Assembly (NCBI GenBank): GCA_964017195.1
Contig: OZ024891.1
Span: 6,411,994-6,475,993, forward strand
Length of the DNA stretch: 64,000 nucleotides
Direction of reading: 5' to 3'
Source: Siderastrea radians
Taxonomy: Eukaryota > Cnidaria > Anthozoa > Scleractinia > Rhizangiidae
How positions within the stretch are numbered: position 1 is the first letter of the stretch; every line of letters begins with the position of its first letter. Below the pieces are notes generated by a model. The model searched no databases. It had not been told where the DNA came from and saw only the letters and a program-made list of their open reading frames with translations. Of the stretch, positions 41,001 to 61,500 are shown piece after piece. Made by a program: the position numbers and the translations under genes.

Positions 41001-43512
41001 GGGCGTTCCCTGAGGAATTTAGAGAAGGGAGCATAGGTGAAGAGAATTCAGAAACCGTAGCCCATTAAAAAAACATACCCTTCTTCTGTCCTTGAAAACG
41101 TTTCCCTTTTCAGGCCAAAACAGAAAACTCTCTACCATATTTCAGACTAGTCGAAAAAATATTGTTCGCGCTGTTCTAGAACACATGGCCAATAGCGACA
41201 CCCAAAATTTGGGACCAAAAGGTTGGACAACATACCCTTTGGAATGTACACATTTAATTGCATTTAAGAATTGATGGGTGTAAAAAACGCAAGAAAAAAG
41301 CACAATTATGCCATAATGTTTTCACTGTGGATACGTACAAAAGAAGGCGAGCAGTGGAGTAAGAACCTGGCAAATCAAGCGCGAGTCAAACTAAAGTGCT
41401 AGGAAAAGCACTTATTAAAGTACACCAACAGATATGGTGAAGTGTTAATTTATTTGCTGCTTTTTCTTTTCAACAGTTTCTGATAGTGAAGGCAGTAGAT
41501 ATTTTGCTGAGGAAACAAATGGCCCTTTTAGGTCGAACACATGGGGCCTTCAACAACAACTCGGTAGGTTTTACTGCTAGGAATAAATGTTTTAAGGAAC
41601 AATGTTTTCGCTGACCAGGAGCTTGCATTGTTATATTTTTAGCCGCAAAAGCATTTTTTAGACATAAAAAGGATAGTCAGAAAATGCTTCTGCAGATAAC
41701 AATGTCAGTTCGTGTCTACATTAATATCAACAGTAGTAAATTGGGCCCGTTTGGGGCATTTGGAGGCTTCTGATTGGTCGAGAGCAAAGTGATGACGTCA
41801 TATCATTTCCGGTGTGGGAAACCGCTGACCAGTGGGTAAAAGGGGGATCGTGGGCTCATGGGAACCGGAAGTCACGTGATTTGAGATGGGAAACCGCTGA
41901 CCAGTTGGAAAAAAGGATCGCGGGCTCATGGAACCGGAAGTCACGTGATTTGAGATGAGAAACCGCTGACCAGTTGGAAAAAAGGATCGCGGGCTCATGG
42001 GAACCGGAAGTCACGTGATTTGAAATGAGAAACCGCTGACCAGTTGGGAAAAAAGGATCGTGGGCTCATGGGAACCGGAAGTCACGTGATTTGAGATGGG
42101 AAACCACTGACCAGTGGAAAAAATCGTTCGTGGGCTCAAGGGGAAGGAAAAAACCGCGGAGAAAACGCGGGCTCAAAAGTCCAAAGTCCAATTTTTGGAA
42201 CGGGGGTGACCCATATATGGCCCATATATGGGTTTGATATGGCACCAGTCCAAGTGGGGCAGCGGGGCAAATATAAAAGGGGGTAAACCCTAAGTGAGGG
42301 AGTAGTCACCATGAGTGTTTACATCACGCTCCTGAGTGATCAAGCGCAAGGCACGGGTCAAAAATTTACGGCACGATTGCCTCGTTCTTATTATTTGGTA
42401 GAAGATGATTGGGAAGTGGCGTTGGTACATATGTCCCACCCGGGGTTTAATCAATCCTTGGAAGATCAAACCAAACAGAATTGGACGCAAGAAGATAGTC
42501 AAAACCATTGGATGAAAACAGATGTGAGATACATGCCAAAACGGGCGGATAACACGGCGCCCCTGAAAGTCACCAAACAAATGTATTTACCGCCAGGGTA
42601 TTACCACAATTTGAAAGAAGCCTGGATTACCATTGCCTACGAAATGGAAAAACAACGCATGGAAGTCATGATGGATATACCCAAAATGGACGTGGATGAT
42701 TTAGCCAAACGACAACAACTAGCCGCTTTGAACCTGGCTCAACCCTATGTGAAAATCACCAATAAGGGCATCGCCTCTGAATTAGATTCGTTGTATGTCC
42801 TCATTCCAGCCAACATGGAATTTGAAATGGAATGGAAATTGGCGGGCTTGATGGGATTGGTGAAAGATGGAACGCCCACGGAACGCGTGGTCCAAGAAAA
42901 GAATTATCTGGTGAAACATATTGTGGATTACAACGATCGGCATAAATGGGAACCCACCACCGGCACTGTAGCCAAATATCCCCCGTTGGGGCACGTCTCC
43001 GTCAGCTTTACCCACCCCGACTTTGATTATGAGTTGTTCTTGGGTCCGAATTTGAGTCGGCAACCTTTTCCCACCACCCCTACGGTCAAACCGCAACAAG
43101 GACAACAACCCTTGATGATTTACACGGATCTGGTGGCCCCGAGCATTGTGGGAAATCAAGAAAAAGGCTTGTTACGTACCTTGGATGCGGGCAATACCGA
43201 GCATCAATTTGATACCAGGCAACGGATGTATTTTCCTCTGGGCAAGACCATCTTTGACAGCATTGAGATAGACATTCAAACAGCCGACGGACAGCCGGCT
43301 CCGTTTAAACAAGGCCGAACCATTGTCACCCTTCAACTCTCCAGAAAAAGTCAACGGACATGACGTGGTTGTTTTTTATAGAGAAAGCGAATCATTAATT
43401 AAATCCTGGAGCACGTGGGATCTAGCCCGGTTTGCTCCAGAACAGACTAACTACTTAGATTGAAAGAGAGGAGGAATAAAATGGCTTACCGGTATCCGTA
43501 GCTGTTGCTTGT

Positions 43513-43546
<34 letters not shown>

Positions 43547-46500
43547 GGCTTGGGAGTGAAAAAACGGGGAGCAGAGGCGAGTTTTTATAGAGAAAAAAAG
43601 GGTCACGTGGGAGGGAAGGGGCCAATGAGAAGGAGGTCCCATGATACTTTTGGGAGGGGGACGGGGACGAGGAGGGGGGACCCCCCTCCCCCCTCTCTAG
43701 TTTGGACCCATGAGGCTTTGCAGGGAAGGACCCAGAGACTATAAAAGAAATCGAACCGCCGGCGGAGTCATCTCAAGATGGCCTCTCGTCAAGACGCCTG
43801 CGGGCAAACCAAGTGCGACGTGTTTTATTTCTTTGAACATTTTGTTTTTTATTGTGAGTCAAGACAACTGTGAGTCAAGAGACATTATTTATGACCAAGT
43901 GCAAAACCAGTGATGTCAGTTTTTTAAAATTTTTTAATTAAAAAAGAAGAGTTGATGTTTTTTACAAAGGGTGGTCTGTGTTCTTTGCCACGCGGGCGTT
44001 CCTATGTACAATTAGAAAAAAAACTACAATTGGAAAAATAAAAACTAAAAAGGCCTATGTACAGATTGAAAAAGTAAAAATTAAAAATTACAAATGAAAG
44101 TCTTCCAGTTCCATACGTAATTGATCAATGTTCTCGGGGAGACAGAAGGTGCGGTTGAACAAGGCTTGAATTTCGGCTCGGGTTTTGTCGTCCACCTCCC
44201 GGGATCCTACCACGGCACTGCTTTGATGAAGGGTGGGCTTTTTGGGGCCCCAAGGGACAAATTGACTGCCAGTGACTAGGGTGGCGGCATTCTCGTTGAC
44301 TTGGTAGTAATGGTCCGAACGGTACCACGTTTGACTGGGAATGTCAAAGAGATAGACGGGTTTGCCTAAATCCATAGCCAATTGCACAGTCCAACCAGTG
44401 CCTCCTTTCACGCGTTTATGATCCGGTTCCAAGATGCCAAAGGCATAGATGGTATGAGCTTTCTTGGCCAATAAATAATTGCGCTGCAGCAATTGCAGGG
44501 TGTAAAAATGACTGGGCATTTTTTTGCCTAGTTTCTCTGCTGCCTGGTGAAGATGGGGATTGGCCAGCATCAGCACTTCCACCGTAGAAGGGGTGATGAA
44601 CGTGGCTCGAGGATGGTTCGGTGGGACCAGCACTTCGAGCTGCATCCCAAAGTGTTTGGCTTGTTCTTCGACGAGGGCATCCGTACCTTTGGCTCCCCCG
44701 GTGTAGACCACATGGCCATGACCCACTTGCAGTTCCAAGGCACCGAGATCTTGTTCTCCGATCATGATGTCTGGGGGCATGGCTTGGGAGAATGACGATG
44801 TAGGGAGCAAGGGACCCTCTTAAATAGGAACACCTGACCAATGGGAAGACAAGAGGTCCTTATAAGGTCATAACAAGCTGACCAATGGGACGCGGAGACG
44901 TCCTTATAAGGTTATAACAAGCTGACCAATGAGAGCGTAGGGGTATGGGTATAAAAAGGCAGGGGCGGGTGAAAAAAATCGTGAGCACGATGTCAGACGA
45001 TCGGAAGAGAAAGACAACCCATCCCCCAGAGGGGAAGAAGAAGAAGAAGACGATTCAAACGATGACACCCGTGGACTGTGATCCGGTGGTAGGGGAGGTG
45101 GTGGAAGATACCCGAGCGGCGGTGGAAGATATGATGAAAGAATTGAATGACATGGCGGAGCAATCTACCCCCCAATTCACTCTGATGACCGTGTATGACA
45201 ATGAGGTGGGCCATTATCCAATCAAAGACAACAAGGAAAAGGTGGACACTATGGTATGCCCTTGCCATGACGTGCGTTTGGAGGCCCGAGAATCTCAAAA
45301 GGGGTGGAAGTATGTGAAATGTCCCATGCAACCCTGTTTGCTGTTTTGTGGCCAAGATCAAGCTCTGGAGTATATGAAAGCCGTGTATAGTCAACCTCAT
45401 ACAGAAGTGTTGGACATGTGGACTTGTTTGCAGTGCTTTTGCCGTGAACCCGCCACGCTGCAACAGAGCCATTCGACCCAGAACCCCGATCGTTTGTTTC
45501 TGAATTGTTCCAAGAAAACGTGTGGCTTCTTCCGATGGGCCGATCAACCCTTGGGTCCCAAGTACTGGAGTTGGTTTCATGACAACCCGCCCAAGAAAGC
45601 CGATCAACAAGCGGAATCTCCTTTGTCTACCCGGGATGCGCAAGGATATCCCAAGCGGGGCTATGACATCCCAGGCCCACCTCCTCGTGCCCCCAGGAAA
45701 GAGGATCGCCCCCTGACAGATTATGAGAAACAATTGTTGCGAGAAATTCAAGAGCTCAAGAACCGTCAAGAAATGATGGTGGCCCCAGCGCCACCACCCC
45801 CCAAGTACAGTGACAGTGTAGAGAACTGGCAGAAAGATCTCGAGACCGTCGCCTGTGGTCGTCATCGTCTAGGTCTCTTTTAATGGTTTAAAAAAGGAGT
45901 AGGAATAAAATTTTTTTTATTTAGTCCATGGAGTCTGCTGTGTGGATGTCTTACGCGTGGGAGGGTCTGTTGTCCCTGGTGGATTGGCAATGCCATCAAA
46001 CCCTGTGCCAAGTGTTATATGATCACCAACCCGGCACCCAAATCCCGATTCCTCCCTGTCCCGAGGACACGCACCCTCTCCACATCTTTGAAGAAACCCA
46101 CGTGGATCGTAACCTGTATCGATGGGTGGTGTTTGTGTTATGGTTAAAAGCGCATCCGGACGCCTGGCGATGGTATCGAATCATTCAAAAGGCGCATCCC
46201 CACACCATCCCTTCCATACCGACCTTATGGGATGAATGCCAGAACGTATGGCCCCTCGAAAGAAAACTCAACGCTGGTCAACAACAACAAAGTTGAAGAG
46301 AACCAAACGCCCTATCTCGTCCACGAAGAAAAGCAAGGTCTCGCAACAATGGTTAAGCCGTTACCATGATCCTAGCGCTCCGGGGAGTTTAGGCGGGGTG
46401 CAACGGTTTGCCAAAGCCCAGGGTCTCCCGTTGAAAAAAGCCCAACGACTCTTGGAACAGGATGTGGGCTACACCTTGCATAAACCACGACGTCGTCGTT

Positions 46501-49500
46501 TTGCTACCTTACCCGTGATCGTAGGGGGGTTGGACGATCAATGGGCCGCGGATTTAGTGGAAGTGCAACGGTTGGCCAAACATAATCGGGGTATACGCTA
46601 CTTATTGACCGTCGTGGATGTCTTGTCCAAGTACGCGTGGGTCCAACCGTTGAAAACCAAAACCGGCGTGGCCCTCGTCAAAGCCTTTGAGAAGATTGTG
46701 AGACAAGGAGGACGTCACCCCAACCGATTGCAAACGGATCGAGGGAAAGAATTTTACAATCGGACCTTTCAACGATGGGTGGAGGAGCAAGACATTCACC
46801 ATTTTTCCACCGAAGGGGATGCCAAAGCCAGTGTGGTGGAACGATTTAATCGGACCTTGAAAGAACGATTGTACCGTTATTTGACCACGGCCAACACCTT
46901 ACGCTTTGACAATGTCTTACCCCAGTTGGTACAAGGGTATAATGCCACCCGTCATCGAAGTATTGGCATGCCCCCCGAAGACGTGACGTGGGACAACGAA
47001 GAAGCCGTGTGGAAACGATTGTACAGCAAGCGATTGAAAGGCTACAAAAAACCCCAATTCAAAGTGGGGGATCGGGTCCGTCTGAACACGATTCATCGGA
47101 CCTTTGAAAAAGGGTATCTCCCCGGTTGGACCGAAGAAGTGTTTGTGGTGCATCGGGTGATCCCGGGCCCCGTGCCCACCTATAAGATTCACGAATGGGA
47201 TGACACCCCCATCCAAGGCACGTTTTACGAAGAGGATTTACAAAAAGTCCAGGTGTCCGACGTGTTTCGCATCGAAAAGGTACTTAAGCGTCAAAAAGAT
47301 CGTTGGTTGGTCAAGTGGAAAGGGTGGCCCGACAAGTACAATAGTTGGATTGCTCGTGGTGACGTGACATCCCTTCAACCGCGCAAACGACGCCGACGCC
47401 GCTAAAAAACAATGACGTTCGTCCCCAATTCGTCGTTTTACGTGACGTTGATGAGTCATGCGAGTACCAAAGAGTTTCCGGGCAACAAAGCCCATCAGTT
47501 CCGAAACCGGTTGCCGAAACCCATTCGATTTATGGGACGCGGATGGATGGTGGGTATGGCGAGTTTATCCTTACCCACCATTCCGGTGGTGGCGGAAGAA
47601 GGAGGCGTGGGCGAATCCCATCCTCTGTTGTATGTACGATGGCACGAACGCGTGCATGACAAAGACGATTTGGGGAACGATATCTGGTGGCATCAACGTC
47701 GCGAACTCTTTACCTACGGCCGGGATATGAAAAAGGAATTGGCCTCGTCGACGGGATCGCACTTGTTTCATCAACTGGTGTACCGGTACGAGCAAAGCCG
47801 TGCCAAACAAACCCAACCCCTCAACAAATGGGCCGAGAACAATGGCGTCAAATTGTACCCGACCTTTGAATGGACCTCCGACGGGGATTTGGTGTTGAAT
47901 ACCGTCAATGTGGATTACACACGACAAGTGGCCCGCGTGGAATGGGGTAGAACCTTGGCCTTGAGAATGGGATGGATTGAACAAGTGTCGCCGGGAGTCT
48001 ATCGATTGGGACCCAATATCCTACAAGAATTTCATTCGGACACGATTCCTACCCCGTCGGATGTCGTGGATGGCAGCAATAAACCCGCCTTTTGGAAAGT
48101 GGATGGGGATTATATGAACTTGAGTATGACCTGTAATTGGCGGTTTGTGAATGTGAACGCGACCTTTCGGCCCTCGTTGGAATTTCCCTCGGTGCGTCCT
48201 TTGCACGTGTATTGTGATGTAGGGACCAGTAGTATGGTAGGGGGCCGCATCACGGATCTCTTACGAGAAATCAAGTACCAGCCCAAAGAAACCACGCACT
48301 TTGAACCGCGTCATATTCAATATGTCCCGGTACGCAACGAAGTGGTGGAAATCGTGGAAACCCAGATGGCCGAAATCAATGGGGATCTCGCCCAATTTGG
48401 CGAAGGGCATACCCTCCTGACCCTCCACTTTAAAAGGGAGGTGGTGGTGTGAAGTAGACAAAGATGTCGTTCTACGTGACGTTACCCAGTCATTCCAATC
48501 GACGGGAATTTCCCAACAACCAAGCCAATAACTTCAAGATTCGTCTACCGAAACCGTTACAACTCACAGGGGGTGGATGGCAAGTGGGGTTGAGTGCCAT
48601 TTCCTTACCGGATGCGCGCGTCAATTTGTACGAGTTGGTGATGAAAGGACAACACGTCTTAGGCATCAAATGGCACCTAAAAGCCCCCAGTCAAGACGGA
48701 GGGACCTATAACAAATATGGAGCGGCCGTGACCAAAATTGACGATATTAACGACTGGGATTGGGTGGTGGACGGGGTGAGTTTTATGAAAGCCGCCATTA
48801 CTCATGTGGAACAGAAACGACGGGAATCGGTGATCCAAGGGGGTACGTTTTTGGACGAGCAAGGCAAACACACGTACGTCAAGTTTCGTTGGGAAGGGGA
48901 GGATCTGCTCATTGACAACACGAATGTCTCTCATGATGGATCCGTTCGCACGCCCTCGTTTGCCGTTCATACCAAGTTAGCTGCCAAGATGGGATGGTTA
49001 CGTAAAATCACCAGCGGATGGATTTTGGGCCCGAACTTACAGCAAGACTTCCTGGGGGATCAAATCCCCGACATGACCAAGAACAGCGATTGGAAGGATA
49101 TCACCGATAAGGATGGGAACCCGGTGTTTTGGACCACCAGTCGAGTGCAAGACTACATGGAATTGAGTATGAGTTGTGGTTGGCGTTTCACCAACTTGAA
49201 TGTGGCGTTTCGGGCGGTGGTGGGGGAACCCACACGATCGTTGCACGTGTACTCGGACGTGGCAGGCAGCACGGTGGTGGGCAATCGCGTGACCGATTTA
49301 TTGCGTGAAATCCAGTACAAGCGACAAGCACGTGGCACCCTGTATTTTGAACCGTTGCACATTCAATACATGTCTCTTCGTAACGAGGTGGTGGAAATGA
49401 TTCACGTTCAAGTGGCCGAAACGATTGGTGCCGGAGGAGACTTGGTCAAGTTTGGTGACGGTCATACCATTGTCACCTTGCACTTCAAAAAGGCATAAAA

Positions 49501-52500
49501 AAGAGAGACGAGAAGGAACCCCCAGTCAAACATCATGCCTCCGAAACGACGACGACGACAACGACAACGACGCCGACGTCCCCAAGCGGGGGAAGGGATC
49601 AACGCCGTGATTGCGGGAATTCCTAAAACGGCCTGGTCCATCACCAAAGGGCTAGAAAAGTTGGCGAAAAAGAATGCCAGAAAATCGCATTTGAAACGCA
49701 TGGAGGAAATCCGACAAGGAAAACGAAAACGCTATGCGGGGGAATCGTTTACGTGCAGCCTCATGTGAGTATAAAAAGAGACGAGCCCGCTGTGAAAAAC
49801 AACCAAAGGCATCCCTGGTGAAGAAGAAGAAGACACCATGCGTGGGGGAAGTTTGACACGATTTCGAACCGACGAGTGGTATGATCAACAAGGCAAAGGG
49901 TTGGCGACGGACCTGATGCGTGGGGGGTTGCAAGGTCTTATAAGGACGCGAAATCCTTTAAAACTGCCTAGTAATATCAAGAGAGGCTTGACAACGGGTT
50001 TGACACGCGGGATCAAACGCAAAGCCGAAGACGCCCTTAAAAAGGAAATTACCAAACAAGCCAAGAAAGCGTTGAGTCATAAGAGCGTGAAAGACGCCGT
50101 GCGTGTGGCCAGTGCCTTATTTCCCAAACAAACCAAACGGGCGCGGGATATTTTGGGCGTGTGAACATGGATCCCGTGCATTCACGACCTCGACGCATTC
50201 GCAGTAATCGAGGGTTGACTCAATGGGGTGGACTGTATCCGTTTTGGAAACTGATGCGGCGACAACGTGGCGGTTGGTTAAGTCCCGAGGTGATGCGACT
50301 GCCCGGGTTTGATTTGAGACAACATTTAGCACGACGACGACGGTATAAAAACCCCTCACGGCGACGACGTACCACCACTCGACGACGTTAAACATGCCTG
50401 ACGTGAGTACACAAACCGCCCCGGCTCACGAGCGTTCCGAAGGGACCGTCAACCCGGCGTTACGGATTTTCAAGGTGCCCCCGACCGACATTAGCATCAA
50501 TGCCTATCGCATGGTCACCATCCAACCCACCACCACGGGTATCAATCCCATGGAATTCATCATTCCTGGATTAGACGATTTTGTGGATTTGGGACGCAGT
50601 TACTTTACCATGGAATTGAGTTTGAAAAAGGCGGCTGGCGGGAACTTGGTGGCCAATGAGACCTTGTGGCCCGTCAACAATTTAGCCCATTCCATCATCA
50701 AACAAATTGACTTGCAATTGAATGGCACGTTGATCAGTCCACAATCCGACACCTATCATTACAAAGCGTACCTGGAAACCTTGCTGAATTTTGACCGAGA
50801 AGATGGCAAGACCGTGTTAGGACCCCAAGGCTGGTTCAATCAAGTGGATTTCCCACCCCAATGGACTGCTGCCAACGTAGACTTTGGTACCCCTAATGCA
50901 GCCTGGACCAATCTCCCTGCCAATCACAAAGGAGCCTTGGCCGCCATGGTCGCCGAAACCGCCAAGTATGCAGGAGGTGCCACCCACAGTCTGGTGTTTA
51001 CCCCCCACTTGGAAGTCTTTCATACCGGCAAACTGTTAGTGCCAGGCATCGAAATCAAGATGAAATTTCATTTCAATAGCCCGGCCCTGTTTTTCAGTGG
51101 AGTGGCTCTGGCAGGTCGATTGATGGAAGGCGATGTGAAACTACGGTTTCATCTCTGCCAACTGCGTTTGAATGACGCCATCTACCACAGTTTGTCTGAA
51201 AAAAGACACAATGAAGGCCAAGTGGCATCTTACCCGACCGTCCGCAGTGAAATCCGGACCTTCACCATGCAAGACAACCTGGTCCGCTTTGATATCCCCA
51301 ACCTGTTTCAAAACAGAATACCGGACCGATTGATTGTGGGGTTACTGGACAGCCGCGCCTTCAATGGAGATGTGACCCGAGATCCATTCTGTTTCCAGAA
51401 ATTTGGACTGACGTCCATTAAACAGATTGTCAAAGGCGAAGAATACCCTTATGAAACCCTGCAGTTAGTGCACAACAATGGCAGCCGAGATAACTTGGGG
51501 TACTTCCGTTTTCTGCAAGCCAGTGGCGCTTGGTGTAAAAAGAAAGGCAATATGGTAGAACTAGGAGATTGGGGCCAAGCGAAAAATTGTACCTTGTACA
51601 TGTTTGACAATGTGGCCAATGGATGTGCCGACAGTCAAAACCTCAACCCCAAGCAAACGGGTGATTTACAATTGGTCTTGGAATTTGGAGCCGCCCCCGG
51701 TGTCAATATAACCGTGCTCGTGTATGGAGAATTTGAGAACTTGCTGGAGATTGACCGCAACGGAGCCGTGTTGTACAACATTTACCAGCACTGAAGAAAT
51801 GGAACACGTGGCCTTGAATAATGTGCAATTGGATTATTTAGCCCGAGACGACCCTCACTTGAAACCTGTCTTTTACGGGACGGTGGCCTGTGATCGTTTA
51901 CCCAAGAAACCTGTCAAGACCCTACCCCAAGGGTACATTGTGAACACCGACCCGCACGATCAACCCGGACAACATTGGTTAGGGGTGTGGACCGAGGGAA
52001 ACGTGTGTGAAATCCTCGACAGTTATGCTTTGCCCATGGACACGTACGTGCAAGCCGCCCCGTTCCAAGCTTGGCTGGGGAAACATTGGAAGTATGTGGT
52101 AACCAATGGCAAGTCCCTCCAAGCCATTTCAAGCAAGAGTTGTGGGGATTACGCCTTGTTGTACTTGAAAGCCAAAGCCCGTGGACGGACCTTGCAAGAC
52201 TTTTTAAATGAGTTTTCCGATCATGATTATGTAAGCAATGACCATCAAGCCGGTCAACGCGTTCAACAATTGATTGTAGGCCAAGAAGCCCGATGGTATC
52301 AACTTTGTTGTCATCCGTATCATCAACGGAATGATTAAATAAAATTTTGTTGGAAAAACAAGTGTGTCGGAGTCGTAGCTCAGTCGGTAGAGCCTTTGGA
52401 TCCCCTCGAATACATGAGGAGGGTCGTGCGTGGGTTCGAGTCCCACCGATTCCAATAAAAAGGTGCCTTTTTTTTCTCAATGGGTAGTATCATCATCATG

Positions 52501-55500
52501 CAAACGGGGAAACCGTTTCGTTTTCATACGCCCTCCTCTATCTTGGTGGTAGGACCGTCGGGATGTGGCAAAACGGTGTTTACGGAAAAACTCTTGGTAG
52601 ACAACCCCGAGTTGTTTGACACCCCACCGACCCAAGTGCATTATTGTTATGGCGCGTGGCAAGATCGATTTCAAGGCATGCAAGATCATGGGGTAGTGTT
52701 TCACGAAGGGATTCCCGATCATGACGCCTTGGTCCAATGGTTTCCTCAAGGACAGGGGGTGCTGGTCTTGGATGATTTAATGGATGAAGGGAGTCACGAT
52801 AAACGCGTGTTGGATTTATTCACCAAACATTCCCATCATCAAGGAGTGACGGTGCTCTACTTGTGCCAAGACATGTTTCCCGTGGGGCGCTATGCCAAAA
52901 GTATATCCCGCAATGCGCATTACATTGTAGCGTTCAAGAATCCCCGGGATCAATTAGGGGTACGCAATGTCATGCTGCAATCGTTTCCCACCACTTGGAA
53001 AGACACCTTGGAGACGTTTCATCAAGCCACCACACGCCCGTATGGCTATTTGATGTTAGATTTACACCCGGCCTCCTCCGATCAACAACGTGTGTTGAGT
53101 CACCTGTTAAAAGACGAAGGATGGACGCGCACCTATCAAAAGCGAGTATAAAGGCACGCCACCACTTTTTGGAACCGGAAAAAGAGCAACCATGGCGGAT
53201 GAGGAGGACCGTCAACCTCCGCAATCGTACGATACCGTGTCCCCGGCCGGGGTTGGGGCGTCCAGCAGCAATGTCATGTCCCCAGGGGCCTTCCAAGATC
53301 TGTTTTTCACAGGAGACGAAGGCCTTATCGACGCGGCCATGGAGGAAATGCCCCCTGATCCCCTCTATGAGTTTATGCAATCCATCCCCTCTGCCGACGT
53401 CATCGCGAGTTGGCCCGATGTGACTGATGTACCCCCTGCACAGGCCTCTTCCCCCGCGGGGGTAGGAAGTCGAGCATCCCATTCACCTCCATTCCAAAGT
53501 CCCCAGACCACCCCGGAGTCTTCTGGGGCTCGAACGCCTGCGACGCCTCCTGGCGTACCCCGGGCGGCGGGTGCTCGAACAGCCGCGGGGGCTGGGGGTA
53601 ATGGGGGTGGACGTGGTGGTGGCGATGGTAGGGGACGCCGAGGACCTAGGACTAGAGGTGGACGTGGCGGTGGACGTGGCGGTGGACGTGGTGGTGGTGG
53701 TGGTGCTGGTGGTGCTGGTGGCGGAGGTGCTGGTGGTGCTGGTGGTGCTGGTGGTGGTGGTGGTGGTGGTGGAGGAGGAGGAGGAGGTGGTGGAGGAGGT
53801 GGTGGAGGAGGTGGAGGAGGTGGTGGTGGTGGACGACGGGGGCGACGACGACGCCTTTTCCCCACTTCCCCTGCCTCCAGTACTCCTGGATCGTCTGGGG
53901 GGTCTGGTAGACAACCTCGTACCTTGCGTCAAGCCGATTTACAACGACGTTTACGGATGCTATTACAAGATCAAGAACAATTGGCCCAAGGACGGGAAAT
54001 TGCTAATGTGACCATGACCAATAGCATTGTGACCAGTTATAAACAAGGAGGCGCCCCGAGCGTACAAACCTCGTCGTCCCGGATCTCGCCGTGAGGATGA
54101 AAACCGTCGTGTCGTTATTGAATGGATCCCGACGTCCTGGCATCCCCTTCCCACCGGAATTGTTACAACGGATGGATTCCTTGTATGCCTTTTACCATCA
54201 ACAATGGTGGTGTTATCGCAAAATGTTGAATCATTACAAGTGTATCAATGCCTTGTTCAATGGCATGGCGTTACTCCTGATGGCCGCGGGCATGATTGCC
54301 GGCCCCCTTTTGGACAACAGTACGTTGGTAGCCTGTTTGGCAGCCGTGGGCACCGTGGTCAAAGGATGGAATGATTTTAAACAATATCGATTTAAAGTGA
54401 CCATGAGTCGGTTTGCGTTTACCACCTATGCCAAAGCCTTGACCGAATTGAAAACCTATGTGAGGGGTGTCCCCTTGGAGGACCTGGAAGGATTTTTAAT
54501 CAAGATGCAAACCTTGGATGACACCATTGTGGATTTCACCCCTCCGTTACCCAAACGATGCGTGCAAGAGTACCATCGTCATTTTGTGTACCATCCCGTG
54601 GAAGCCCTATGCTATGTAGACGGATGTCCTCGTCCCTTGAAACCCAAAGACTACTGGATCCATAAAAAGCCGCTCCCTCCCAGCCCGACACTCTTAGAAC
54701 CATGGCCCCCCGAAGAAGACGGACAAAAAGAAAAAGAAGAACCCAGCAAGGAGAAGGCATACCTTGGCTCGTCGACGTGAAAAAGGGGTATGACATCACA
54801 AGTGATTTGGTCAAAGCCTTGAAAAAACCGCAAATGAGTGCTACCCAAGGGAGAAAGATGGTATCGGGGTACAAACAACAATATCAAGCGTATAAAAGAC
54901 GAGGGGGTACCAAAGGGTACAACAGTTGGTTGATCGACAAAGGCTATGCCAAAAAACCTAACAAGTGCTGTATCCAATGAAACGTCTTCGACGTCAACGC
55001 AGAAAAAGGAAACAACGAGGAGGAGCTTTAATGCGTCGCAAACCCCGTTTGGTGGATAAAATTGCCCATGGCATGAGTATGTTTCTCTCAGGCCCTGCGC
55101 CGGGGTTTGGACTGGCTTTAGGCAAATTAGGCGGGCAAGCCTTAAAAGGCATTACCGATAATGTACAACATTACCGACGACGACAACGAGGTGGGGGTTG
55201 GTGGTCCGATTTGAAACGCAATACCCGTCAAGGCTATAAAGAGACGCAAGACCTCATCAAACAAAACAAAGCCCTTCAACGTGTCTTGTCGCACTCATGG
55301 TATCCTTAAAGAGAAGACGCCGACGACGACGACGACGTCAACGCGGTGGTTTTGTAAATCTATTGGTCCCTGCCCTGACGGGATTGGGGAAAGCCGTGGC
55401 CTTGGAAACGGATAAACGTATAAAACGCACGATCCAAAAAGCCAATCAACGCTATCGTCGCCGTCACCGATAAACGATGCAACGTCTTCGACGTCAATTG

Positions 55501-58500
55501 CCGTTTTTACGGTCCATGTTACAAGAAGCCAATGGTTCCAAACGTCAAGAGTTGTTACAACATGCCAATGCCGATCAAATTAATGCCGTGAGTGAACTGG
55601 TCTTGAACTTTTTAAAAAACAAGATTCCCGTCACACCCCCCATGCTGTCTAAACTTCAACCCTATAAAAGGGTGCTACGCAATTTGGGACGTCGTCGACA
55701 TTCCGTCAAAAAACGGCGTGCGTGGTTGGTTCAACAAAAAGGACGCGGCTTGTTTCAAGGACTTCACGAGGTGTTATGTCAATGTGCTCGACCGACCCGT
55801 TAACCCTGGCCACATGGATCACCCTGTTACAAGAGGCCAATCGGGCTACCGACCGGTGGAAAGACGAGTGTCATTATTGGAAGCATAAATATCACCTGTT
55901 GTATCGAGAGTACAGGCACATCTTAAAGACCCGTCTTTGTGAGAGCTGTCGTCAAATAGAAGACGGGGAACTTTGCTCCGAGTGTAGTCAACCCCCATGG
56001 ATGCAGTCTACATGATTCCCCACAAGGACTTGGAACAACTCGTTCAATATTACAAAGGAGAACTCACCGAAAATGCCTTGTTGAACAAAGCCGCCAAACT
56101 CGCCGCTCAAAAACATGTCTTGTTAGCCAATCCCCAATTACCCCCGGCCGTGGTCAATGCTCAAACCAAACCGTTGAGTCAAGAATTAATCAAGTTAACC
56201 AAACGCATTCGTCAATTTCCCGGAGGCGTGGGAGTGGGGGCTCCGGGTGCACCTCCTGGCGAAGACGAAGAAGAAGAGGCCGGGGATTTGGTCACGGGGC
56301 CCGTGGAACAATGGTTGAAGCGCATGATAAAAGGCAGCCCGTCGACTCCCAAACCACCCATTACCCCTGCAACCAAGAAAGGCAAAGGAGCAGCCACCAG
56401 TAGTAAGATTGTCAAGAAAGGGAGCCCATCCACTAGTCGAGGGGATCTACAATCGCGTTTAGAAACCATTCGAGAACGTCGCAAGACCTTGGAAAAAAAG
56501 ATAGCTGAGAGTGGTAAAGGCAAAGGCAAAGGCAAAGGCAAAGGCAAAGGCGTCTCCCGTGAAGTGCAAGCATTAAAACCCTTACCCGGTTGGGAAGATT
56601 GGCACCGAGGCAAAAAGTTACGACGTCGATTGGATTACGACAGTGAATAAACATGCCTCCCAAGAGGAGAAGGGGTATCAAACGGAAACGCACCCAACGA
56701 GGAGGGGCAGTGGATGTCCAAAAATGGATTGCTAAAACCGGCAAAGAATTTCATTGGCCTGGCTATCAGTACATGGGCCCTGGCACGCATTTGGCCAAAC
56801 GTCTAAAACGTGGGGATCCCGGGATCAATCGCTTGGACCAAATTGCTAAGCAACACGACATTGATTACAGCCGTGCCAAGAATTTGCAAGATAAATGGAA
56901 AGCCGATACCAAGATGATCCAAGCCATTGATAAATTACCCGGCAAGAAAACCAAGACGGAACGGGTGGTCAAGAAAATCATGCAAGCCAAGAAACGTTTA
57001 AAATTGTAACTTTTAATGGGAAACCGTACCATGTTTCTACAGTTGTGATGTAGACAAATGATCCACATGTGTTTTTTTTTCATAGAAAAAATAAATCAAT
57101 ACAAAATGTCAAAGCCGTCTCTTCTTTTTTTAAACATCCTCATTCATGAGGGTGTCGAGCAATTGTTCGTATTCCTCGGTAGACATGTCCTCCCACAAGT
57201 CTTGGAGATCCACACTCCTTTCTAAAGGGTCCTCCAGGGTGGCTATCAGCTCGTTCAACCAAGCCATCACCTCATCCGCCAACAACGCCTCCTGTTCCCA
57301 CACAGGGAGTTCCACGGACAGGATGTCCCCCGAATCCAAATTTAGGACGGTCCAACTTTCCTCCTCTTGGTCTGGGATGTCCGGCATGGTTCCGGGGAGG
57401 ATGGCGGTACAGGCGGCGGTGTTAAGGGTCTCTTAAATTCAAAGCGCCAATACGGGCAACAATAGTCCAATCCTTCAATGAACCACGCTGTATTGAGTTG
57501 CGGGTAACACCCGGGGGACCAGTGTTCTTTGACTTGGGCCTCGCGTGCCGCCTGGGCTGCCTCTTTCTGCCGTTCTCTTTCTTTCAACTGTTCCCCAAAG
57601 GCAGTCAACTCGTCGTCCAGGCCAAAGTCCGTCTTGGTGTTCTTTAAAATCGCTTCGACCTCGAGATCCGCCTCGACCTTTTCAAACTCGATGAGTAAGG
57701 CGTCTTGACGAGAGACCATTTTGAGATGACTCAGCCGGAGGTTCGATCTGTTTTATAGTCTCTGGGTCCTTCCCTGCAAAGCCTCATGGGTCCAAACTAG
57801 AGAGGGGGGAGGGGGGTCCCCCCACCCCAGTCCCCCTCCCAAGGCCTCATGGGTCCAAACTAGAGAGGGGGAGGGGGGTCCCCCCACCCTAGTCCCCCTC
57901 CCAAAGCATCATGGGGTCTCCTTCTCATTGGCTCCTTCCCCTCCCACGTGACATTTTGGTTCTCTATAAAAAACGAACCCCGATCGCCAGTCAGTTTATC
58001 TGATCATGTCCTCTCAAGATGACGAGGCGGCGGGGCCAAGTGGCCTCGCCCACCATGAAATCCGGTCCTTGCTCGGTTTGGAGTTAAGTGACTCCGAAGA
58101 CAACAGCCATTCCTGTGTGGGACGTTTGATTTCAACTGAAGAGATGCCCGACAGCGACGACGCTATTTGTGAAGAGGCATTGCACCACTTCGAACAAAGC
58201 GGGGGCGGATTGGATCCCGCTGAACACGTTACCTTCCAATTTGACTTAGAACCTTTTGTCAATCGGAAGAGTGATCGCATGGGGGTACAAGAACGTCATT
58301 TCAAGACCCAGTTACGTCAAAGGGGGAACTTGCTGCCAGGCCAAAATATAACCCAAGCTCTCCAAGATGGATTACGTCGAGCCGTCGATCAAGTGTTAAC
58401 CACCACGCCTGACCTCCACGATCAAGATCGTCTGTACTTTACCATCGCCTCCGATCGCCTCCACAATAATTTTCAGGGGTGGGGATTACGGGCAGGGGAA

Positions 58501-61500
58501 TGGCGTCGAGACACAGAACGGGTGGAGGCCCTCTTCCAACGTTTAGCCCAAGCCCTCAACAGCAACGAACAATTTGAAATGGACGATTCCTTTCAAGTCT
58601 CCATCACGCAAGTTCATCATGCGCCTCAAGGTACCGGCAAACCCCGTCGTGGCAAACCCGGCCATCCCACCATGGCCCTGTTAACGGCCAAGAAAAAATC
58701 GGTCATCCGCATCCAAAATGATGACGAACTCTGTTGTGCCAGAGCCCTCGTGGTTGCCAAAGCTCGCGTGGACCAGCACCCTAAATACGACAGCATCCGC
58801 AAAGGAAGGCCCCTGCAAAGAACCCTCGCTTGGGACCTCCAGAATGAAGCCCAGGTACCCCTCGGTCCTTGCAGCTACGACGCCTTGACCCAATTCAGTC
58901 AAGCTCCCTCCCTCAGAGGTTACCAGATCATCCTGGTCGATGCACAGCGATCGTTTCACATCACGACGTTTGGACCCCCACGAGACAAACAACTGATCCT
59001 GTTGCACAACCAAGACCATTATGATGTCATCACCAAATTGCCGGGATTTTTCGGGTCCAGTTATGTGTGTGCGGATTGTTGGAAACCCTACAACACCGAG
59101 GGACTGCATCAATGCACCAAAACCAAGGTGTGTGGAGCCTGTCGACAGAAAGATTGTCCCGACTTTCAATATGCGTACCCCCGGCACCTGAAAGCCACTC
59201 AACGTTGCGGGTCGTGTCATCGGGACTTTTTTGGACCCGCGTGTAAGGAAGCCCATGCCAGCAAGACCCATGCGGGCAAACCCGCCACGGGCCTCCAGAC
59301 CTCCGTGTGCTGTCAACGATACCGATGCAAGGACTGTTATCAACAAAATGTGGGCTTGTCCCGCATTCAACGTCACCGTTGTTTCCACATAGACTGCCCG
59401 TCTTGTCATCAGTACGTCGACGCCGACGAACACCAATGTTTTATACAAAGAGCCCCCAAACCTCAAGACCAAAAGAAGAGAAAGAGAACCCGTCAAAAAG
59501 GTCCTCGCGCCAAACGAGGTGCCGCCGCCGCCGCGGAACCCCCTGTCTCCTCCGAGGACGAGGACGACAACGACCTGCCACCCTTACACGTCTTCTTTGA
59601 TATCGAAGCCATGCAACCCCAGGAAAAACACCTTGCCAATCTCGTCGTGGCCGAAACCGAAGACAACGAGGAACCCAAGCCTTTCCCAGGTCCCACTTGT
59701 ATCCGTGACTTTCTGGAATGGCTGGATACCTTGACTCTCCACGATACCCGTCAAGTGAATGTGATTGCTCATAACTTCCAGGGGTACGACGGGTACTTCA
59801 TCATCCAAGAATACTATGGGGACAACCGCCTCGTCCAACAACTCCGCAACGGATGTAAACTCTTAGAGATCCAACATGACCGCATCCGGTTCATCGATTC
59901 CATGAGTTTCTTCCAGATGCCCCTCTCTGCCTTTCCCAAAACCTTTGGCTTGACCGAACTCTGCAAAGGGTATTTCCCCCACAAGTTCAACCGGCCCGAG
60001 GATGAGTATCAACAGTACGTGGGCATCCTCCCCTCACGCGATCACTACATGCCTGAGACCATGACACTCGAAGGAAGACAAGCCTTTGAAACCTGGCATC
60101 AACAACAACGCGACCAGGGTGTGGTGTTTCATTTTCAACAAGAGTTGTTGGCCTATTGCAGTTCCGATGTACGCCTCCTCAAACAAGGATGTCTGACTTT
60201 CAAACGCCTGTTTGAAAACTTGACCGGCTTCAATCCCTTCGATCACGTCACCATTGCCTCCGCTTGTAATCGAGATTTACGTATGAACCGGATGATCCCC
60301 AACAGTATTGCCAGTGAACCCGCCGGTCCTAAGGGGTGGAGAATCAATCACATCAACCAGTCCCTCCCAGCCCTTCAATGGTTAACCTGGTGCGATCACC
60401 AACTACGTCAACGCGCCCTCCAAGATCTTACCCCCGCTGATCTACTAGCCAATGCCCATCCAAACCCACAGTACATCCAACATGTCCGAAATGAAGGCGA
60501 GAAAAAGATCCCCGGGACCCACATGCATGTGGATGGTTATTGCTCCCACACCCACACCGTCTACGAATTTCAAGGCTGTTTCACCCACGGATGCCCGACG
60601 TGTTATCCCCATCGCTACGAAAAACATCCCCGCAACTATGATCGAACCATGCAGGACCTCTATGACGCCACCCAAGACAAAGTCCAAAAGCTTACCGACC
60701 GAGGGTACAACGTCATTCAAATCTGGGGATGTGAATGGGAGCACCTCCTAAAAACCCAACCAGAGATCAAGGCCTTCGTCCGGGAACTCAACTTTATCGA
60801 TCCTCTGGAACCTCGAGAGGCTTTCTGTGGAGGTCGTACCAATGCCATCAAACTCTACCATCATATCACCCCTGGCCAAAAAATTCACTACATCGATGTC
60901 ACCTCCTTGTACCCGTGGGTCAACAAGAAGTCTGTGTACCCCAAAGGACATCCGAACATCATCTTCACCCCGGGTCACACGGACATCCACCAGTACTTTG
61001 GCCTCATCCAATGCAAAATCCTGCCTCCCCGTGAATTGTACCATCCCGTGCTGCCTTACCGTCATGGCGACAAACTACTCTTTCCCCTCTGTGCCCGTTG
61101 TGTGGAAGAAGAAATGGCCAAACCTCTTTTGGACCGATCCTATCATTGCCCTCACCCCGACGAACAACGCGCCCTCACCAGTACCTGGTGCACCCCAGAG
61201 TTGTATAAAGCCGTCGAGCTCGGGTACCAAGTTCAATACATCTATGAAGCCTGGCATTTTGAAGAAACCTGTGAGGGGCTCTTCGAAGATTATGTGAATA
61301 CCTGGCTCAAAATCAAACAAGAAGCCAGTGGGTGGCCTAAGGATGACATGACAGAAGAAGAAAAGCAACGTTACATCCACAAGTACTTGGAGCATGAAGG
61401 CATCCAATTAGAGTACAACAACATTAAGTACAACCCGGGGCTGCGTACCCTAGCAAAACTCATGCTCAACTCCATGTGGGGCAAGTTTGGTCAACGTCTC

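Follow-up and report, generated by a model that had tools for sequence, protein, structure and literature searches.

The window analysed here is a stretch of 64,000 nucleotides from the coral Siderastrea radians (GenBank assembly GCA_964017195.1, contig OZ024891.1, positions 6,411,994 to 6,475,993, forward strand). An element of about 21 kb, at 41.7-62.7 kb of the window, is taken as a Maverick/Polinton because of its terminal inverted repeats, an integrase with a chromodomain, weak ATPase, capsid and protease matches, and a polymerase frame. On its minus strand lies a gene for a protein of SLOG type, whose motifs stand in rotated order. The features on which the argument turns are as follows.

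41709..41845, no strand: left arm of the terminal inverted repeats (137 nt; the arms are 91% complementary)
62547..62683, no strand: right terminal inverted repeat arm, pairing with the left arm
44088..44780, minus strand: permuted SLOG gene, 230 amino acids plus stop
44679..44702, minus strand: glycine loop TGGAKGTD, residues 27-34, counterpart of SGGAxGAD in phage relatives
44391..44405, minus strand: second glycine motif GGTGW, residues 126-130, with Gln133 at the LOG catalytic Glu position
44196..44213, minus strand: VVGSRE strand, residues 190-195; unpermuted SLOG/DprA proteins have it at the N-terminus

A conserved gene of the SLOG superfamily

The frame runs exactly from ATG to stop over 230 codons. 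Searching a protein database with its product returned 199 relatives at E<=1 from 319 candidates, and a profile search returned 352 from 3380. Within the host's own genome (804.8 Mb, 439 contigs), 150 copies were scored out of 1303 candidates, 95-100% identical, and 149 of the 150 were free of stops; a more distant query, P0129, gave 145 stop-free copies out of 150 (1273 candidates). These own-genome copies were seen at their loci, while a Maverick location is assumed for the other relatives from protein searches. The ratio of nonsynonymous to synonymous substitution rates (dN/dS) had a median of 0.15 across element lineages, over 171 non-independent pairs at 70-97% identity and dS <2 (2 of 44 loci were removed for stops, and locus L003 is the window's own copy). 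Closer copies gave a median of 0.30 (125 pairs), and 388 of 559 pairs of more distant copies were saturated or undefined. Three young pairs among the 171 (L137, L160, L165) had values of 0.69-1.04, as would be expected for copies that drift once inserted. Database relatives, stop-free genomic copies and the median of 0.15 together argue that the reading frame is not a product of chance: the SLOG gene is real and under purifying selection.

The original prediction placed this protein in the SLOG superfamily and proposed a profile search with the permuted sequence. Profile matches bear the assignment out, with the window protein matching PHROG 768, "DprA-like DNA recombination-mediator protein", at E 1.9e-10, as do 28 of 30 family members; PHROG 289, "GTP-binding domain", is matched by 20 of the 30 (best 1.5e-5). 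At E<=1 the window protein has just three Pfam matches, each to a SLOG model and each below cut-off, and the families most often matched among the 30 members at E<=0.1 are likewise SLOG families: DprA (20/30), YAcAr (16/30) and cpYpsA (14/30). Neither DprA (PF02481) nor cpYpsA (PF12694) takes the window protein in. For DprA its score is 16.1 against a cut-off of 29.6 bits (best seen 25.7, P0086) and the motif order is rotated; for cpYpsA it scores 12.0 against 26.2 bits (best member P0105, E 7.3e-4, 19.7 bits), although the circularly permuted SLOG order by which that family is recognized is present. Six NCBIfam families, dprA among them, are each matched by 1 to 3 of the 30 members and so not consistently, and the PADLOC model ShosA is matched by 17 (best 4e-5). 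Judged by these profile matches, the window protein belongs to the SLOG superfamily.

Structure prediction, the other check that had been proposed, agrees with a Rossmann-like fold: the model alternates alpha and beta elements and places the glycine loop after a strand. Its closest solved structure by Foldseek is 3imk, which we take to be a solved example of the cpYpsA family, aligned collinearly at 13-16% identity. LOG and DprA structures are absent among the Foldseek matches listed, which does not exclude them. Among PDB sequences, a search with the window protein found nothing at E<=10; eight matches to alignment A1 (seven homeobox proteins and one FOSW) were set aside as chance.

Relatives and the rotated motif order

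The window protein reads TGGAKGTD (27-34), GGTGW (126-130) and VVGSRE (190-195), so that the glycine loop comes first and the strand that is N-terminal in unpermuted proteins comes last, just as predicted. Profile matches confirm the rotation. Positions 73-206 of the DprA profile match residues 16-159 of P0037, and positions 73-205 match residues 25-167 of P0086, and earlier profile positions match further downstream: P0076 is matched over two stretches, of which residues 173-205, on profile positions 35-68, give the best match, and residues 152-177 of the SLOG domain from Klebsiella phage Pylas weakly match profile 45-70 (E 0.0055).

That phage domain, which lies within a virion RNA polymerase, is the best phage match to the window protein (31.8% identity, E 6e-21, residues 23-213). 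By tblastn, 70 phage records were found at E<=10, 23 of them with at least 80% query coverage; with the Pylas domain as query, 61 phage records reached E<=1e-3, of which 59 had 80% coverage or more. Pfam domains of N4-type virion RNA polymerases were recognized in the Pylas protein and in a protein of Alteromonas phage PT15-A5, in a scan that took in two of about three parts of the latter. Giant crAss-like proteins also hold the permuted domain, and in jumbo phages it is free-standing. Domain-bearing loci include L009 and L022 (Schitoviridae, virion RNA polymerases) and L010 and L016 (crAss-like giant proteins), the latter two proteins being annotated DprA-like over their whole length. IMG/VR returned no relatives of the window protein or of alignment A1, but the mixed alignment A4 found 202 in 224 candidate stretches, of which 80 were kept; the frame holding the domain could be placed for 79, and this frame was more than 400 codons long in 41, between 261 and 400 in 6, and no longer than 260 in 32. 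Bacterial genomes contributed 25 loci from 28 stretches, which by record title are 13 Flavobacteriaceae, 9 Desulfofustis and relatives, and 3 others.

Six phage rows were scanned, and all match PHROG 768. These permuted phage forms resemble the window protein directly and collinearly across almost the entire domain (roughly 25-33% identity, E down to 6e-21), with the same motifs in the same order: SGGAxGAD, LLxRN, GGTGW, W, and a C-terminal GxG[ST]R strand standing last. The Maverick version differs from them: it carries an N-terminal leader and a C-terminal helix, the hairpin that precedes its last strand is longer, and it reads VVGSR where the phage forms have GIGTR. Animals have the same order too, in Dendronephthya LOC114515684, Limulus LOC106474456 and a protein encoded on contig C13 of the host itself, which is about 31% identical to the window protein; their motifs are nearer to the phage forms than to the Maverick form. 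Another animal SLOG family, the LSDAT region of TRPM channels, is fused to a channel and is likened here through a published report rather than by sequence.

Unpermuted order was read in five phage DprA-like proteins: Milchi (which has 1470 relatives), ESCO5, Philippe, VPMCC14 and SW_PA2862. They share the motifs SG[GK]Ax[GS][AS]D, LHxRN or AHTRN, GGT and [IV]G[ST]R, but in all five the last of these is N-terminal, within the first 13 residues. A hidden Markov model (HMM) of the C-terminal part of the phage rows found its best match N-terminally in all five, scoring above the best of 1000 shuffles (5.6) in three, and an HMM of the phage-row core exceeded its best shuffle (5.5) in all five. HMMs of three Maverick rows alone gave no significance for the rotation, the C-terminal one scoring no more than 1.5 bits where its best shuffle reached 3.8, and that of the core exceeding its best shuffle (2.3) in one protein of five. 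The label "DprA-like" in phages thus spans two topologies.

Where the original prediction went too far was in treating the rotation itself as special. The same order runs throughout a large branch of phage, bacterial and animal proteins, and 3imk aligns collinearly; to judge from these sequences the rotated order is already widespread and not new, and permutation as a unique viral invention was rejected.

The carrying element and a host counterpart

The other features of the element, some recognized by profile and some by position, are these.

44945..45883, plus strand: GRF zinc-ribbon protein, encoded next to the SLOG gene and divergent from it (PF06839 E 1.4e-5, 25.5 against a cut-off of 25.9 bits)
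46236..47405, plus strand: retroviral-type integrase with chromodomain (rve 2.5e-12, Chromo 1.5e-5, both exceeding cut-off)
50394..51794, plus strand: probable major capsid protein, from a Capsid_N match at E 0.097 only and its position within the element
51724..52338, plus strand: probable adenovirus-type protease (Peptidase_C5 E 0.017, below cut-off)
52480..53151, plus strand: probable A32-like packaging ATPase (Pox_A32 E 7.7e-4, below cut-off)
54091..54780, plus strand: two-transmembrane (2TM) protein (top Pfam match SLATT_1 E 7.3e-4, below cut-off)
58006..62184, plus strand: probable type B DNA polymerase, an open frame of 1392 codons

We presume the last frame to be a type B polymerase from motifs read by eye; its C-terminal 592 residues had no PDB match at E<=0.01. 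The element also encodes a protein with a phospholipase A2-like domain (56653-57009; PF08398, E 2.2e-11), and an open reading frame at 53192-54094 contains a long glycine- and arginine-rich stretch of low complexity. Internally there is a second set of inverted repeats (43582-43799 and 57698-57972, about 14 kb apart, up to 129 nt, 95% complementary). Its right arm overlaps the start of a minus-strand gene of 125 amino acids (57342-57719); duplication of a promoter or start region could thus explain the left arm. Accessory regions with diverse open reading frames are described for vertebrate Mavericks (PMC8097293).

With the Dendronephthya protein as query, the host genome yielded a single locus of 65% identity, on contig C13, whose open frame spans 246 codons; the next match was 40% identical, on contig C420, and the other 147 of 149 rows were 28-34% identical, many of them Maverick copies. 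The C13 gene (C13:10535119-10535775; L178, L186) is intact, 65% identical to the octocoral protein and apparently outside Mavericks: in the surrounding 9.5 kb, tblastn gave no match to any of ten further Maverick proteins, a set that did not include the polymerase. The C420 stretch (L179, L187) has 51-52% G+C and two tandem permuted SLOG copies, the second match being weaker; this contig is perhaps from a symbiont or a contaminant.

In phylogenetic trees, seven Maverick-type rows form one clade (Shimodaira-Hasegawa-like approximate likelihood ratio support 100) on a long stem, and the trees did not place that clade. Constraining it to group with six animal rows, a grouping named only after the first tree had been seen, was not rejected by the approximately unbiased test (p 0.74) and gave a tree 17.8 log units above the free quick search, from which it follows only that the short free search was incomplete.

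Ligand, role and competing explanations

Taking PGGxGTxxE to be the catalytic motif of LOG phosphoribohydrolases, we located the position of the catalytic Glu across the family. Gln occupies it in 26 of the 30 rows of alignment A1 and in 200 of 223 other motif-bearing domains (224 examined), and Glu occurs in none of the 30 and none of the 223. A LOG-type enzyme is ruled out by this missing residue, and because the catalytic glutamate is replaced, the protein would act mainly as a binder, a sponge or sensor, rather than as an enzyme.

Some phage relatives keep company with DUF4326, NADAR, Macro or a synthetase of nicotinamide adenine dinucleotide (NAD). Among the 26 members of alignment A6, which include 21 long phage-contig proteins bearing the domain, DUF4326 occurs in four and NADAR in two. 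Of the 120 loci L009-L128, a set with bacterial and repeated loci in it, five have a Macro-like frame; the locus of the query and what appears to be a copy of it are counted among the five, and Pfam supports Macro at L014. Phage Atu_ph07 encodes an NAD synthetase two genes upstream of its SLOG gene. Published work already ties Macro, NADAR and DUF4326 to the SLOG domains of phages, and such viral domains are proposed there to counter ADP-ribose-type host signals (PMC9503650, PMC7824862); ADP-ribose binding by the SLOG region of TRPM2 is reported likewise (PMC13143021). Because of this genomic context, the published links and TRPM2, we favour an NAD/ADP-ribose-type binder, and the comparison points to NAD or ADP-ribose derivatives rather than cyclic dinucleotides as ligand. 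The earlier suggestion of a role in nucleotide signalling is a fair one in its general form; its more specific part, a block of cGAS/STING-type signalling, finds no result pointing to cyclic dinucleotides.

The best explanation we can offer, though we hold it with somewhat less than even confidence, is that an active or recently active Maverick carries a soluble permuted SLOG protein as an accessory gene, a nucleotide binder that blunts host signalling. A predicted pocket bounded by the two glycine loops, TGGAxGTD and GGTGW, and by the GSR strand would bind an adenine-nucleotide-type ligand, most likely an NAD or ADP-ribose derivative; the ligand would be withdrawn or sensed, and host nucleotide signalling thereby dampened during infection. 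The presence of SLOG on a Maverick hints at such interference with nucleotide signals. SLOG domains had so far been found only in tailed phages and giant viruses, according to a published survey (PMC9503650), and no paper joining SLOG and Polinton was found in the open-licence literature, SLOG with Maverick or adintovirus not having been sought as a pair.

Several observations weigh against this explanation. The canonical glycine loop is present in just 21 of the 30 A1 rows, so that in the other nine binding may differ or be lost. The phage context of ADP-ribose/NAD type is a minority, with no baseline of random loci behind the counts, and in phage Cr30 the SLOG gene lies beside recombination nucleases, upstream of it, which fits a role with DNA. 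Each Pfam SLOG score seen for the family lies under its curated cut-off; Foldseek gave no PDB match at E<=0.001, 3imk reaching only E 0.037; and the model has a mean predicted local distance difference test score (pLDDT) of 72.9, falling below 50 at residues 1-21, 54-63, 215-217 and 224-230. Among the nine rows without the canonical loop is the clade of P0103, P0105, P0106 and P0107, which retains GGTGW and the C-terminal strand.

The Cr30 neighbourhood would suit a protein acting like DprA, as a single-strand DNA-binding accessory to viral recombination or replication, and so would the DprA-like annotation of phage relatives in several records and the 20 of 30 members matching the DprA profile at E<=0.1. 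That annotation, however, is a family name only, no DprA score seen reaches the cut-off, and the domain occurs also within virion RNA polymerases and beside ADP-ribose-type domains, so we regard this role as unlikely. Capture of the host's own permuted SLOG gene, with the viral copy competing for the host protein's ligand or partner, seems less likely again. It would accord with the open C13 gene, its 9.5-kb surroundings free of matches to the ten other Maverick proteins, and with the better likelihood of the constrained tree; but viral and host proteins are only about 31% identical, the Maverick stem is long, a p value above 0.05 is no proof of a clade, and the group was chosen after the first tree.

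The 2TM protein raises the possibility, improbable to about the same degree as a DprA-like role, of a SLOG-SLATT pair in which SLOG senses a nucleotide and the 2TM protein is a SLATT-type pore, which would let the provirus arrest or kill cells infected with a rival virus, or would serve in its own exit. SLATT_1 is its top Pfam match and is matched by 5 of the 26 A6 members (best 7.5e-5), taken to be the five 2TM copies that A6 contains. Two long helices are predicted, and the gene is in the expected position in five of nine divergent SLOG-bearing copies examined (one partial, at the edge of the fetched sequence and with an internal stop). Yet the window protein scores 20.0 against the SLATT_1 cut-off of 26.3 bits, Exosortase_EpsH does nearly as well (E 1.4e-3; 3 of 26 A6 members), and confidence in the model is low (pLDDT 58.9). 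Searches by tblastn found nothing in phages and only weak helicase matches in plasmids (E >=0.7), IMG/VR held no relative and PADLOC no match, and 9.3 kb separate the SLOG and 2TM genes, which are encoded on opposite strands. It is more doubtful than any of these that the Mavericks here carry a bacterial-style SLOG sensor, of the kind also found inside phage virion RNA polymerases, and a SLATT-like pore that act on, or mimic, a host pathway based on the permuted SLOG of the animal itself; if true, phages, this virus-like element of a eukaryote and the animal that hosts it would have in common one kind of nucleotide-signal conflict system. The conserved Maverick SLOG and its host counterpart offer two concrete proteins for examining whether SLOG-sensed nucleotide signals serve animals against DNA viruses.
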